This document shows, piece by piece, positions 27,072-58,101 of a stretch of 64,000 bases of DNA. A program made the translations under genes and the position numbers. A model generated the notes under the pieces. It was not told the origin of the DNA and made no database searches. It saw only the letters and a list, made by a program, of their open reading frames with translations. The stretch comes from an uncultured Porphyromonadaceae bacterium. Lineage in GTDB: Bacteria > Bacteroidota > Bacteroidia > Bacteroidales > Muribaculaceae. The stretch is from NCBI GenBank assembly GCA_947177185.1, contig CAMWTJ010000003.1, positions 45,169-109,168 of the forward strand, read 5' to 3'. Every line of letters begins with the position of its first letter. Positions within the stretch are counted from its first letter, which is position 1.

Positions 27072-28267
27072 AATCGTACACCAACACACTGGTAAGGCGG
27101 CTCATGCGGCACAACGTCAGCACGCCGCAGATTGCCGGCTATGCGCTGGCCTCGCTGGTGGGGCTCGCCATAGTGCTGGCGGCCATGCAGTTCTACCGCG
27201 ATGCCTCTGGACTGTTTGCCGGGGGCGACAGCGGAATCCTGCGCCACGACTACCTCGTGCTGTCGAAACAGGTAGCCATCGGTTCGGGAGCCACCGCGTT
27301 CACCGCCGACGAGATTGCCGACCTTGAATCGCAGCCGTGGGCCGAAGCCGCCGGCGCGTTCACGGCATCACGCTTCAAAGCGTCGCTCGGGGTGGATTTC
27401 GCAGGCCGGGGCATGTCGACCGAAACTTTTTTCGAGAGCATACCCGACGAATTCTTCGACAGCCTGCCGTCCGACTGGTCGTTCGACCCCTCCGAGGGCG
27501 AAATGGCCGATGTGCCCATAGTGGTGTCGCGCGACTATCTCGCGCTGTACAATTTCGGTTTCGCCGCCACCCGTGGACTGCCCACACTGCGCGAAGGCGA
27601 GATAGGCATGATACCGCTGCGGCTGTATCTGCGCGGCTCCGACGGCTCCACACTCCGCATGCGCGCCCACATAGCAGGTTTCTCATCGCGCATCAATACC
27701 ATTGCGGTCCCGCAGCAGTTCATGGACTGGGCCAACGCGCGCCTTGCACCGGGCAGCGCGGCCGCTGGCCCGTCAAGACTCGTAGTCAAGACCAACACCC
27801 CCGGCGACCCCGCCATTGCCGCCTACATGCGACGCCACTCGCTCGACATAGCCGGCGACAAAATAGACAACGGCACCGCTGCCTATTTCCTGCGCGTGGC
27901 CACGGGGGCAGTAGCCGCCATAGGCGCCATTATCTCCGCGCTCGCATTTTTTGTGCTGATGCTTAGCATCTTCCTGCTGCTTCAGAAAAACCGCGACAAG
28001 CTCCACCAACTGATGCTTCTCGGCTATTCGCCCTCTCAGGCGGCCCGCCCATACGTCATGCTCATAGCGGCCGTCAACACCGCTGTGCTCATCGCAGCCA
28101 TTATCGCAGTGGCCGCGGCGCAGCTGCTTTGGAAGCCGATGCTTGAGGCCGTAGGCGCTCCGACAGCCTCGCTGTGGCCCACCGTGTGCGCCGGCGTCGC
28201 ACTTATGGCAGCCGTCAGTGCCATCAATATCGCATGCGTGCGCCGAATCATTAACAAAGACTTCTGA
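27068..28267 (+). CDS. FtsX-like ABC transporter permease
   Basis: ATGA overlap with the ATPase; N-terminal TM, ~220-aa extracytoplasmic domain, C-terminal TM cluster. Confidence 0.75.
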   Translation: MKSYTNTLVRRLMRHNVSTPQIAGYALASLVGLAIVLAAMQFYRDASGLFAGGDSGILRHDYLVLSKQVAIGSGATAFTADEIADLESQPWAEAAGAFTASRFKASLGVDFAGRGMSTETFFESIPDEFFDSLPSDWSFDPSEGEMADVPIVVSRDYLALYNFGFAATRGLPTLREGEIGMIPLRLYLRGSDGSTLRMRAHIAGFSSRINTIAVPQQFMDWANARLAPGSAAAGPSRLVVKTNTPGDPAIAAYMRRHSLDIAGDKIDNGTAAYFLRVATGAVAAIGAIISALAFFVLMLSIFLLLQKNRDKLHQLMLLGYSPSQAARPYVMLIAAVNTAVLIAAIIAVAAAQLLWKPMLEAVGAPTASLWPTVCAGVALMAAVSAINIACVRRIINKDF

Positions 28268-28271
28268 ACGG

Positions 28272-29543
28272 ATGGTCGGCCTGATCGACTGCAACAATTT
28301 TTTTGTATCGTGCGAGCGGGTCTACTCTCCGCGGCTGCGCGCTCCCAGGCCGGTGGTGGTGCTGAGCAACAACGACGGATGCGCCGTGGCCATCAGCAAC
28401 GAAGCCAAGGCCCTGGGCATCAAGCGAGGCGACCCATTTTTCAAAATCGAGCATCTGTGCCGGCGCCACAATGTGGCGGTGGTGTCAGGCAACCACCGCA
28501 TGTACGGCGACCTGTCGGCTCGCGTTATGGCCACCATCGGAGAACTTGTGCCGGAAATAAGCATATACTCCATCGACGAGTGTTTCATCGACCTCGGTGC
28601 CCGGAGTGACAGCGCGCAACTCGAAAAGCTCGGCCGCGACATAGTGTGCCGTGTGCGCCGCAACACCGGCATCCCCTCCTCGCTGGGCATAGCTCCTACA
28701 ATGACTTTGGCAAAGGTGGCCGCGCGTTTTGCCAAAAAGTATGCCGGCTATCGCTCCGTGTGCATTATCGACTCTGAGGAAAAGCGGCGCAAAGCCTTGT
28801 CGCTCACCGCGCTTTCTGACATATGGGGCATCGGCCGACGCTTGTCGCGAAGGCTTGTTCCGATGGGCTACAACAATGCGCTCCAGTTTGCCGACATAGC
28901 ATCTGAAGAGGTCGGACGCACGTTCAACATCAACCTTGAGCGCACACACTCGGAGCTCAACGGAATCCCGTCCATCAGCATCGACAGCGAAAACGAACCA
29001 CGGCGCAAGCAGATGTGCTCCACCAGAAGTTTCGGCCACTCCGTGACGGATTTCGCCACCTTGGAATCGGCCATGGCAGCCTTCGCATGCATAATAGGCC
29101 GCAAACTACGCGAACAGGGCAGCTGCGCTGTGGTGCTCGGCGCCTTCATACAGACCAACAGCTTCCGCGACGACGAGCCACAATACTCCAATTCATGCCA
29201 AATAAGGCTTGAAGAACCCACATCCGACACCATGCGCCTGACCGCCGCGGCACAGGCCTGCCTGCGGCAGATTTTCCGCCGCGGCTATGCCTACAAACGC
29301 GCAGGTATCCACGTGCACGAGATTGTGTCGGAAGAGGCAGTGCAGGGTTCGCTTTTCATCACACAGGACGAACGCGCACGCCGACAGCGCATCATGAGCG
29401 TAATAGACGAGATAAACCGTCGCAGCCGCAGTCACGACAAGGTATATGTAGGCTCGTACGCTCCCCTGTCGGGGCTCGTGCGCCGCGAGCGCGACAACCG
29501 CTCGCTCACTCCTCCCGATATCGACATCATCAGGCCGTTCTGA
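28272..29543 (+). CDS. Y-family DNA polymerase (UmuC-like)
   Basis: MVGLIDCNNFFVSCERVYSPRL, VVVLSNNDGCAVAISNEAKALG, YSIDECFIDL. Confidence 0.94.
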   Translation: MVGLIDCNNFFVSCERVYSPRLRAPRPVVVLSNNDGCAVAISNEAKALGIKRGDPFFKIEHLCRRHNVAVVSGNHRMYGDLSARVMATIGELVPEISIYSIDECFIDLGARSDSAQLEKLGRDIVCRVRRNTGIPSSLGIAPTMTLAKVAARFAKKYAGYRSVCIIDSEEKRRKALSLTALSDIWGIGRRLSRRLVPMGYNNALQFADIASEEVGRTFNINLERTHSELNGIPSISIDSENEPRRKQMCSTRSFGHSVTDFATLESAMAAFACIIGRKLREQGSCAVVLGAFIQTNSFRDDEPQYSNSCQIRLEEPTSDTMRLTAAAQACLRQIFRRGYAYKRAGIHVHEIVSEEAVQGSLFITQDERARRQRIMSVIDEINRRSRSHDKVYVGSYAPLSGLVRRERDNRSLTPPDIDIIRPF

Positions 29544-29831
29544 GCCGTGCTGCCGTGGCGGTAGGTAGTGTCAAAAATCGTAAGTCGGGCTGTTGCTGAC
29601 ATTTTTTAACACGCAAAGCCAAAAAATCGTAATAATTCCATGTTATACAACATGATTATACAAAATAACCCCGCAACACGTGGCATTTTTATCTTACAAA
29701 TAGACACAAATAGGCGCCGATAATTGCTGTTTTACAAATTTATCGCCTGCAAGGGCGCGAAAATGAAAATATGTAAGCCGCTGAGGCTCTACAGCGTGCG
29801 TCAATATGCCGCATCTATTTATTTACGCGAG

Positions 29832-29863
29832 TTTGCACGGTATGAAAATTATTATTACCTTTG
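29832..29863 (+). promoter_or_regulatory. Bacteroidetes-type promoter (TTTG-N20-TACCTTTG)
   Basis: TTTG 29832-29835, 20-bp spacer, TACCTTTG 29856-29863; no normal-length ORF downstream on this strand. Confidence 0.7.
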
Positions 29864-29869
29864 CAGTGG

Positions 29870-29990
29870 GAAATAAAACATTACAGCAAGAGATTGCTTT
29901 CTTTTCATGAGTAATATGGAATAGACACTTAATTGATACAACACTATGTGTACGACGCATGGGGGACTCGGGAGAGCCCCCCATGCTCGT
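29870..29990 (+). ncRNA. Candidate structured small RNA
   Basis: Downstream of the strong promoter; hairpins AGCAA-GAGA-TTGCT (29885-29898) and 13-bp GCATGGGGGACTC-GGGA-GAGCCCCCCATGC (29957-29986), both with GNRA loops. No T-run; 3' end uncertain. Confidence 0.4.
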
Positions 29991-30021
29991 TAAGAGCCGG
30001 TTCGAAAATAATGCAGGCAGG

Positions 30022-31326
30022 TCAGAAAGTAAACTGGCACATGGCACCCACGCGACGGGCAGAACGCGCGTAGCCGTCGACGTTGCAGCGCAGCCCCCAG
30101 TCGAACTCCACGCCGGCCTGTATGCGCGGAGTCAGATTCCAGAACAGATTGGCACACGCCCACAGTCCGTACTTGTACTCGCTGCCGGCCGTGCCCTCGC
30201 GTGCATAAAGACGCGTCTGGCTGAACGAGGCGCTTGCGAAGATATCGGGCCGAAAATTGTACTGCAGGCCGAGGTTCCATCCGAGCGATGCAGGAGCGTA
30301 CATGTGTCCGGGGTCTGCGACGTCCGGCAAAAGGTCGTAGGCACCGCATATGAGGTCGCCGCCCATGCTTGAGGTGCCGCGTCCGTAGTTGAGAGTGGCA
30401 TACACGGTAAGAGGGTCGGCAGGATGGCCGGTGGCGCTCAGCAGCACACCCCACCCTGCCCTTCGGTGTGTGCGTTCCGAAATCAGGTCGCGATAGCCCA
30501 CCGAACGGACTATACCGCTCAGGCGCACATGCGACGTCGGTCCCCACGCATACTGCACAAATGCAGCTCCGTCGGGACACACCGTGCTGGCGGCCTCAGT
30601 GCTCACACCGTCGGTAGCCACGGCTGTGGTCGGGTTTTCCACCGACACAGCCGCCGTCCAGCCGCTGCGGAATGTATGCATGTAGCGCAGCAGCACCGTG
30701 GTGTTGCTTATCTTATTGTTGGCACCCTGCGCGTCTATCACGGGCGGCTGAGCGGCAGGGTCGCCGAACGTCGACGACGCGTAGCCCACGGTCACATCGC
30801 CTATGGTGGCGTAGGCCTTTTTCAGTTGAAAGCCCACATGGTCGTAGCCGTTGAAATTTCCTTCTATATAGAGCTGGTAATGGCCGAGCATTTTATTGCG
30901 GCCTATCACTCTGAAAAACAACCCTGTGCCCGACGGCGACACACCCAGGCGGTCGCGGCTCGTGCGCTGCGCGGGGTCCATTGTGATAAGGTAGGGAGAG
31001 AAGCCGTTGCTCTTGGTCATGTAGCCCACATCGTACCAACCGCGCATGCGCACAAGGCCGCCTATGCCCATGGCCAGCTGCGAATCCTTGCTCATGAACA
31101 TGAAGTACGGGGCTTCGGGGTCCTGAAAGCCGCGGAACTGGTCGAAATAGTACTCGGCGACTATACGGTTGATACTGTCTACCTGCTCGGGGGTGTACTT
31201 GTTGCCGCCGAGTTCATAATAGACTACATCGGCGGCAGCGGCAGCGCGCTGGCGATCGACATGGCTTTGCGCCGATACGGCCATTGCTGCTGCCGCAGCG
31301 GCCATAAACAAAAATATGCGCTTCAT
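30022..31326 (-). CDS. Porin-like outer membrane protein (DcaP-like)
   Basis: Signal peptide, beta-barrel strand pattern, C-terminal aromatic (MCQFTF). Confidence 0.75.
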   Translation of the reverse strand: MKRIFLFMAAAAAAMAVSAQSHVDRQRAAAAADVVYYELGGNKYTPEQVDSINRIVAEYYFDQFRGFQDPEAPYFMFMSKDSQLAMGIGGLVRMRGWYDVGYMTKSNGFSPYLITMDPAQRTSRDRLGVSPSGTGLFFRVIGRNKMLGHYQLYIEGNFNGYDHVGFQLKKAYATIGDVTVGYASSTFGDPAAQPPVIDAQGANNKISNTTVLLRYMHTFRSGWTAAVSVENPTTAVATDGVSTEAASTVCPDGAAFVQYAWGPTSHVRLSGIVRSVGYRDLISERTHRRAGWGVLLSATGHPADPLTVYATLNYGRGTSSMGGDLICGAYDLLPDVADPGHMYAPASLGWNLGLQYNFRPDIFASASFSQTRLYAREGTAGSEYKYGLWACANLFWNLTPRIQAGVEFDWGLRCNVDGYARSARRVGAMCQFTF

Positions 31327-33140: not shown

Positions 33141-33172
33141 CAAAGGTAGCGAAGAATTTCCACAATTACAAA
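33141..33172 (-). promoter_or_regulatory. Promoter of the polyprenyl synthetase gene (TTTG-N20-TACCTTTG on minus)
   Basis: Plus-strand CAAAGGTA 33141-33148 and CAAA 33169-33172, spacer 20. Confidence 0.7.
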
Positions 33173-33241: not shown

Positions 33242-33274
33242 TTTGGAGTTTTCGCTTATTTTTCGTTAACTTTG
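33242..33274 (+). promoter_or_regulatory. Promoter of the ECF sigma gene (TTTG-N21-TAACTTTG)
   Basis: TTTG 33242-33245, TAACTTTG 33267-33274, ATG at 33292. Confidence 0.65.
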
Positions 33275-44406: not shown

Positions 44407-44445
44407 GCAAATATTTGCAATATAGCGCCAAAATCAGTAATTTTG
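44407..44445 (+). promoter_or_regulatory. Promoter (TTTG-N20-TAATTTTG) overlapped by palindrome GCAAATATTTGC
   Basis: Palindrome 44407-44418, TTTG 44414-44417, TAATTTTG 44438-44445. Confidence 0.6.
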
Positions 44446-58068: not shown

Positions 58069-58101
58069 TTTGGTATTATCCATTAATTTTCACTACATTT
58101 G
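58069..58101 (+). promoter_or_regulatory. Promoter of the DUF4492-cydAB operon (TTTG-N21-TACATTTG)
   Basis: TTTG 58069-58072, TACATTTG 58094-58101, ATG at 58112. Confidence 0.65.

Follow-up and report, generated by a model that had tools for sequence, protein, structure and literature searches.

The window, by which is meant the whole 64 kb stretch of DNA analysed, contains a conserved gene for a small RNA in the gap between umuC and a porin-like gene, and there is very little doubt that the gene is real. The computation supports an RNA gene with its own promoter, a terminator hairpin whose base pairs covary, a box at fixed spacing upstream that matches the consensus of the Crp-family regulator Cur, and mostly a single copy per genome. 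Its transcription, the action of Cur on it with the sign of that action, and its pairing with target mRNAs are inferred. Overall the RNA is likely to be a Cur-controlled, trans-acting sRNA of a new family, a judgement that does not extend to any named target, and it probably serves as a regulator of sugar shortage that works by mRNA pairing.

Table 1. Positions of the promoter, the RNA and neighbouring features in the window
Feature	Position	Strand	Basis
−33 box TTTG (Bacteroidales sigma-ABfr promoter)	29832-29835	+	Sequence; family conservation
−7 box TACCTTTG	29856-29863	+	Sequence; 20-nt spacer after TTTG
Small RNA body, ~120-125 nt	29868-29993	+	Conserved block in G024, G007 and G023; models R1/R2/R3; both ends inferred
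5′ hairpin AGCAA-GAGA-TTGCT	29885-29898	+	Sequence
Anti-start motif UUCUUUUCAU (family form CUUUUUCAU)	29899-29908	+	Window clade has the variant form
ACAC-TAT-GTGT	29941-29951		Sequence
Universal core ACACUAUGUGUA (family form UUAAGUACUAUGUGUAAG)	29941-29952	+	Motif conservation
Terminator-type hairpin, GNRA loop GGGA (29970-29973), then TTAAG	29953-29989	+	Covariation
13-position stem with one A.C mismatch, loop GGGA	29957-29986		Sequence
Predicted Cur/BT4338 (Crp-family) box CATGTTATACAACATG	29639-29654	no strand	12/14 against the consensus wwwTATGTTnTAnAACATAwww
umuC/Y-family polymerase gene, 5′ of the RNA and outside it	28218-29543	+	Pfam IMS, 7e-36
Porin-like gene, convergent neighbour	30022-31326	−	Weak Pfam Porin_2/DcaP matches, below cut-off

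A preliminary description of the window had proposed a new small RNA that starts from a promoter TTTG-N20-TACCTTTG, said to be among the best in the window, and ends at a large hairpin. The strict pattern TTTG-N19..21-TAnnTTTG occurs five times in the 64 kb, against 0.25 expected, and the promoter at 29832-29863 is one of the five. The other four are at 33141-33172 (−), 33242-33274 (+), 44414-44445 (+) and 58069-58101 (+). The gap from the umuC stop to the porin stop (29544-30021) measures 478 bp, in agreement with the ~480 bp and the tail-to-tail arrangement first reported, and a gene check of the gap likewise showed no ordinary gene on the plus strand 3′ of the promoter. The two GNRA-loop hairpins and ACAC-TAT-GTGT were all found at the places first given for them. 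The RNA between 29870 and 30000 folds with −38.1 kcal/mol (z = −4.4; none of 200 shuffles equals it). As the antisense strand also folds well, folding cannot set the strand of the RNA, and it is the promoter that does so. The informative parts are absent from the preliminary description: the Cur box 5′ of the promoter, the copies in relatives, and the unpaired motifs that are conserved.

A first DNA search, covering 61 genomes, showed that three further species of the genus have the block 29827-29991, with 81-86% identity, whereas the rest of the umuC-porin gap is not conserved. There are four such close copies, in the sister species G024, G007 and G023, and they lie at other loci. In G023 the RNA stands in two 98.3% identical 2.4 kb stretches on two contigs (L004, G023:C32, and L008, G023:C2), which may come from mixed strains in the assembly and not from a true second copy. 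All four sequences retain the promoter, the invariant stretch GATTGCTTTCTTTTCATGAGTAATATGGAATAGACA and the terminal hairpin. Weak matches to the promoter alone in G005, G010 and G022 (L005-L007, L010) were promoters of other genes and were set aside.

A covariance model built from the close copies, R1, recovered more distant full-length copies; one match (L044, 37 bits, E 7e-4) was dropped as a chance terminator match. With a second model, R2, made from an alignment of 17 sequences, the RNA was found in 32 of the 41 genomes of the genus and full-length copies in 101 of the 397 genomes of the family, at up to 151 bits, the weakest few of which may be chance. Family-wide, there is nearly always one copy per genome. 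The third model, R3, represents the 3′ part of 30 sequences and gave bimodal scores: true matches reached at least 50 bits, background did not exceed 38 bits, and the true matches span seven genera (g1, g29, g30, g32, g36, g40 and g48). The covariance-model match in the window, at 29869-29989, scores 96 bits. Model searches of the order outside the family, R3 included, gave no convincing copy, and two R3 matches at that level (G589 and G516, 41 and 39 bits) consist of hairpin and core scraps only and were left uncounted. The host family of the RNA is probably Muribaculaceae. No match to the RNA was present in phage and plasmid collections or viral contigs, so by these tests it is not of the mobile-element type. 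The Rfam search that had been suggested at the outset assigned the window to no family, and at ten distant loci it gave, at the element, nothing beyond chance-level matches. One subgroup of the genus (L094, L095, L108 and L114) has an insertion around CATAGTGGAATTTA and an altered core, GUACACAGUAUGUU, in the RNA.

Covariation in homologous regions had also been proposed as a check, and it is strong in the terminal stem. Among 30 diverse sequences all ten counted pairs change on both sides, with a covariation score of 0.735 against 0.245 for shuffled alignments (none of 500 reaches it); 92.7% of the cells pair, which was likewise unreached in 500 shuffles, and slid registers also score far below. 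Ten pairs changed on both sides in the alignment of 17 sequences, and the four close copies already contain four compensatory pairs. The loop is GNRA in most members (GUGA, GGGA, GCGA or GAGA). A T-rich tail follows the hairpin in most relatives, as in an intrinsic terminator, while in the window copy the T-tract is poor (CGTTAAGAG, compared with CGTTTTTTGC in G024). The conservation of promoter and terminal hairpin, with strong covariation in the latter, supports the RNA first proposed, as judged from the sequences.

The 5′ hairpin is less constant. Its position is occupied by GCAUU-N4-AAUGC in the main group and by AGCAA-N4-UUGCU in the window clade, a compensatory U-A/A-U exchange, but it is absent from G023 and some subgroups; of the two hairpins whose conservation had been anticipated, then, the terminal one is kept in relatives and the first is lost in a close one. 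A hairpin at 29900-29925 does not vary among the four close copies, yet the main group lacks it, and it is unsupported. A small conserved open reading frame was also considered and rejected, the window reading MSNME-stop not being retained in the main group.

Two motifs, CUUUUUCAU and the GUACUAUGUGUAA core, are conserved far above the rest of the RNA. CTTTTTCAT is present in 32 of 41 members and six of the seven genera, against 0.05 expected from shuffles; all 41 members have ACUAUGUGU or one of its listed variants, and 38 have UUAAGUAC. CUUUUUCAU is the complement of AUGAAAAAG starts, which makes start codons the obvious place to expect pairing. In the main group the stretch around it is largely unpaired; the form in the window clade can alternatively fold as a weak hairpin. 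Duplex energies were calculated for sampled stretches of two genomes, comprising 309 and 258 start regions. In the window genome this bulk prediction gave no excess over shuffled seeds, and in G030 there was a small excess.

One candidate target was found, the gene of a 246-aa protein of outer-membrane type at G000:C2:30318. Its start region, CACATAGTGTatATGAAAAGAA, shortly 3′ of the gene's own TAACTTTG promoter, fits the two motifs of the window copy, antiparallel in order, over 10 + 10 nt; such a joint match would occur ~0.001 times by chance in the sample, a hand estimate made post hoc. Of 17 related genomes 15 lack the gene, so the protein cannot be the conserved target, and the homologue in G194 does not fit the G194 RNA. 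It is doubtful that this gene is a target. For action by pairing at mRNA starts in general, the sequences put the chances at about even.

The principal alternative is that the motifs bind a protein, either an RRM protein such as RbpB or a regulator that is sequestered, and not mRNA starts. A core kept in 41 of 41 members is more conserved than varied mRNA targets require, the bulk prediction shows no excess, and RbpB is known to bind the FopS/GibS sRNAs in Bacteroides (PMC11697453). Against this, CUUUUUCAU is an exact anti-start-codon motif, mostly unpaired in the main group, and one start region of the window genome does match over 10 + 10 nt. On balance protein binding seems unlikely, though it is the best of the alternatives, and pairing at mRNA starts is retained as the working mechanism.

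Conservation extends upstream of the RNA. The −7 box TAnnTTTG is found in 38 of 41 family members, mostly 4-8 nt 5′ of the conserved RNA start, and TTTG or three of its four letters at −33 in 36 of 41. Counting words 5′ of the 41 loci, before any comparison with a published consensus, brought out words of the TATAACA/TAACATA type, which resolve into the palindrome TATGTTnTAnAACATA; 25 of the 41 loci carry a matching box. This palindrome equals the published consensus of Cur (BT4338), including both fixed central bases. Cur is the Bacteroides master regulator of carbon limitation. Its consensus, wwwTATGTTnTAnAACATAwww, was predicted in Bacteroides (PMC3878776) and is backed there by ChIP-seq and by deletion at fusA2 (PMC6989115). 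The window box fits 12 of the 14 specified positions and is the sole site of such quality in the 64 kb; the window has ATGTTNTANAACAT exactly, with 0.04 matches expected at up to one mismatch. Boxes with at least 12/14 number 28 in 14 kb of upstream DNA against four in 351 kb elsewhere, a 171-fold enrichment. At loci whose upstream gene runs in the same direction as the RNA, the window among them, the box sits 3′ of that gene's stop codon, and it can therefore serve only downstream DNA. No recognisable Cur box was found upstream at 16 of the 41 loci, including the g30 members and most g32 members.

The spacing of the box is fixed. From its centre to the end of the −7 box there are 216-219 nt at 17 loci of the genus, the window included, and exactly 52 nt at four loci of other genera. 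Most of the genus (L097, L100, L096, L098, L101, L102, L105, L106, L094 and others) has a second element, TTTAAC-N2-ATTTTAA, ~188-191 nt upstream of the −7 box end, including loci that have no Cur box; the window clade lacks it. Between this element and the promoter the DNA shows background identity only, though its length is held.

The window genome, which is 91% complete, has a single gene above the Pfam cut-off for HTH_Crp_2. It encodes 232 aa with a cNMP_binding domain and carries a box of the same kind, TATGTTTTATAACATG, ~17 nt before its start codon (L120 2201-2216, G000:C1); the region had already been flagged in the first genome search by its similarity to the window gap. Similar boxes precede the Crp-family gene in G024 and G095, and autoregulation of this Crp/Cur-type gene is probable from the sites. 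Another palindromic Cur-like site in the window genome, GATGTTTCACAACATC (11/14), is at L046 1601-1616 (G000:C61).

The palindrome might instead serve another regulator, from the Crp/Fnr superfamily or a different family, and not a Cur orthologue. Some relatives do have several Crp-family genes and 217 nt is an uncommon distance for Crp, but a lone HTH_Crp_2 gene bearing the same box, together with identity to the published consensus down to the two central bases, makes this improbable. Cur is predicted, with considerable confidence, to control the RNA in the genus, and with nearly as much to control the window copy. Activation would be somewhat favoured over repression; the position at about −220 in the genus, far from the promoter for a Crp activator, counts against the overall reading.

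The genes next to the RNA differ among the 41 loci, with an HU-like protein upstream in five, umuC in the window and others elsewhere, and those downstream lie on either strand. With neighbours that differ and strands that vary, it is improbable that the RNA is a leader, comes from a 3′ UTR or serves the porin gene specifically. A role as 5′ leader (attenuator or riboswitch) of a downstream gene, or origin as the processed 3′ end of an upstream mRNA, would suit the same-strand downstream gene at about half of the loci and the same-strand gene ~300 nt upstream at many; it is nevertheless highly improbable, given an opposite-strand downstream gene in the window and at many other loci, a divergent upstream gene at about ten, mutually unrelated neighbours and a separate promoter in 38 of 41. 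Action on the convergent porin gene by antisense or terminator interference, to which the tail-to-tail arrangement, the weak T-tract of the window copy and a homologous porin ~1.4 kb from the G024 copy might point, deserves just as little credence, since the porin-like gene is not kept beside the RNA in most relatives, different genes occupying its place, the RNA body does not overlap the porin gene (stop at 30022), and the duplexes it would form with the porin start region are weak (−7.9 and −9.1 kcal/mol). Of the two modes of action first suggested, action in trans is thus the better, and interference at the porin 3′ end is unsupported. A secreted GH13 alpha-amylase gene, possibly the ancestral neighbour, is near the RNA at 15 of the 41 loci, mostly ~300 nt upstream (L078, L080, L082, L085, L086, L089, L093, L094, L095, L104-L108 and L114).

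The nearest functional parallel to the trans-acting sRNA proposed here is MasB (BTnc201) of B. thetaiotaomicron, an intergenic sRNA of ~100 nt that is activated by Cur, with a Cur ChIP peak 5′ of it, is most abundant in carbon starvation and is described as narrowly conserved (PMC10994844). MasB represses an mRNA by base pairing, and its proven site is ~40 nt inside the coding region (PMC10994844), whereas pairing of the window RNA is proposed at start codons. The two are alike, by description, in size class, intergenic place and, for the window RNA as predicted, link to Cur. No MasB match was among the Rfam matches with E ≤ 1 for the loci scanned, which would bear on homology only if Rfam 15 includes MasB.

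The nearest architectural parallel is FopS. The FopS and GibS sRNAs of Bacteroides consist of an unpaired seed followed by an intrinsic terminator, with seeds aimed at translation starts and a role in sugar use; GibS has the promoter motif PM2, and FopS, a 14-copy family with 12-15 copies per genome, has a sigma-ABfr promoter (PMC11697453, PMC7366714). FopS shares with the window RNA the layout of a seed region, putative in the latter, and a terminator, as well as the promoter type, but not its mostly single copy per genome or its Cur box. The Rfam scans of the window and relatives gave no FopS or GibS match. RF04180 (BTnc231) was rejected as a relative: its matches in L034 and L038 are weak (E 0.07-0.23; 26 bits against a gathering threshold of 80), none of 12 genomes exceeds the cut-off, and similar weak matches in E. 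coli and other controls mark them as non-specific.

Spot 42 and CyaR of E. coli are single-copy, Hfq-dependent sRNAs; Crp controls them, and they act by pairing at the starts of mRNAs. They belong to another phylum, and the likeness is functional, no sequence relation being expected. In B. thetaiotaomicron, BTnc140, BTnc195 and BTnc364 lie near Cur sites and are raised in carbon limitation; the accessible part of that source does not report their conservation outside Bacteroides (PMC10294740), and they too are likened by description, not sequence. The window RNA is classed as a new family within a kind of sRNA already known, on the lack of an Rfam match and on comparisons by description with MasB, FopS and BTnc140/195/364.

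In the proposed mechanism, RNA polymerase would start near 29868-29871 from the sigma-ABfr-type promoter and stop at the terminal GNRA hairpin. A Cur protein of the BT4338 type on the upstream palindrome would control this transcription, most likely activating it once good sugars run out. The RNA would then bind target mRNAs where their translation begins and so lower it, using two motifs: CUUUUUCAU, which faces AUGAAAAAG, a start common among exported proteins, and the GUACUAUGUGUAA core. More tentatively, the RNA might be a hub sRNA throughout Muribaculaceae that passes on the carbon-limitation signal of Cur by repressing mRNAs of exported and outer-membrane proteins. In the genus it might be switched remotely by a two-part upstream module, the Cur box 217 nt and TTTAAC-N2-ATTTTAA ~188 nt before the −7 box, which would be enhancer-like, with spacing fixed to ~2 nt across unconserved DNA. 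Hub and module taken together are rather unlikely; an enhancer-like arrangement is, to our knowledge, not known for Crp-family control in Bacteroidota.

Muribaculaceae, the probable host family, are abundant in the mouse gut, and no described sRNA from the family was found in the literature searched. In Bacteroides, an as yet unknown sRNA or protein has been predicted to carry the effect of Cur on Roc (PMC10294740), and further Cur-linked sRNAs are therefore wanted. The link from the carbon-limitation regulator to an sRNA has to date been demonstrated for MasB in a single Bacteroides species, and the present RNA, which looks unrelated, suggests that it recurs. Mostly single-copy, spread over seven genera and with a Cur box in front, it offers a handle on post-transcriptional sugar control in Muribaculaceae.
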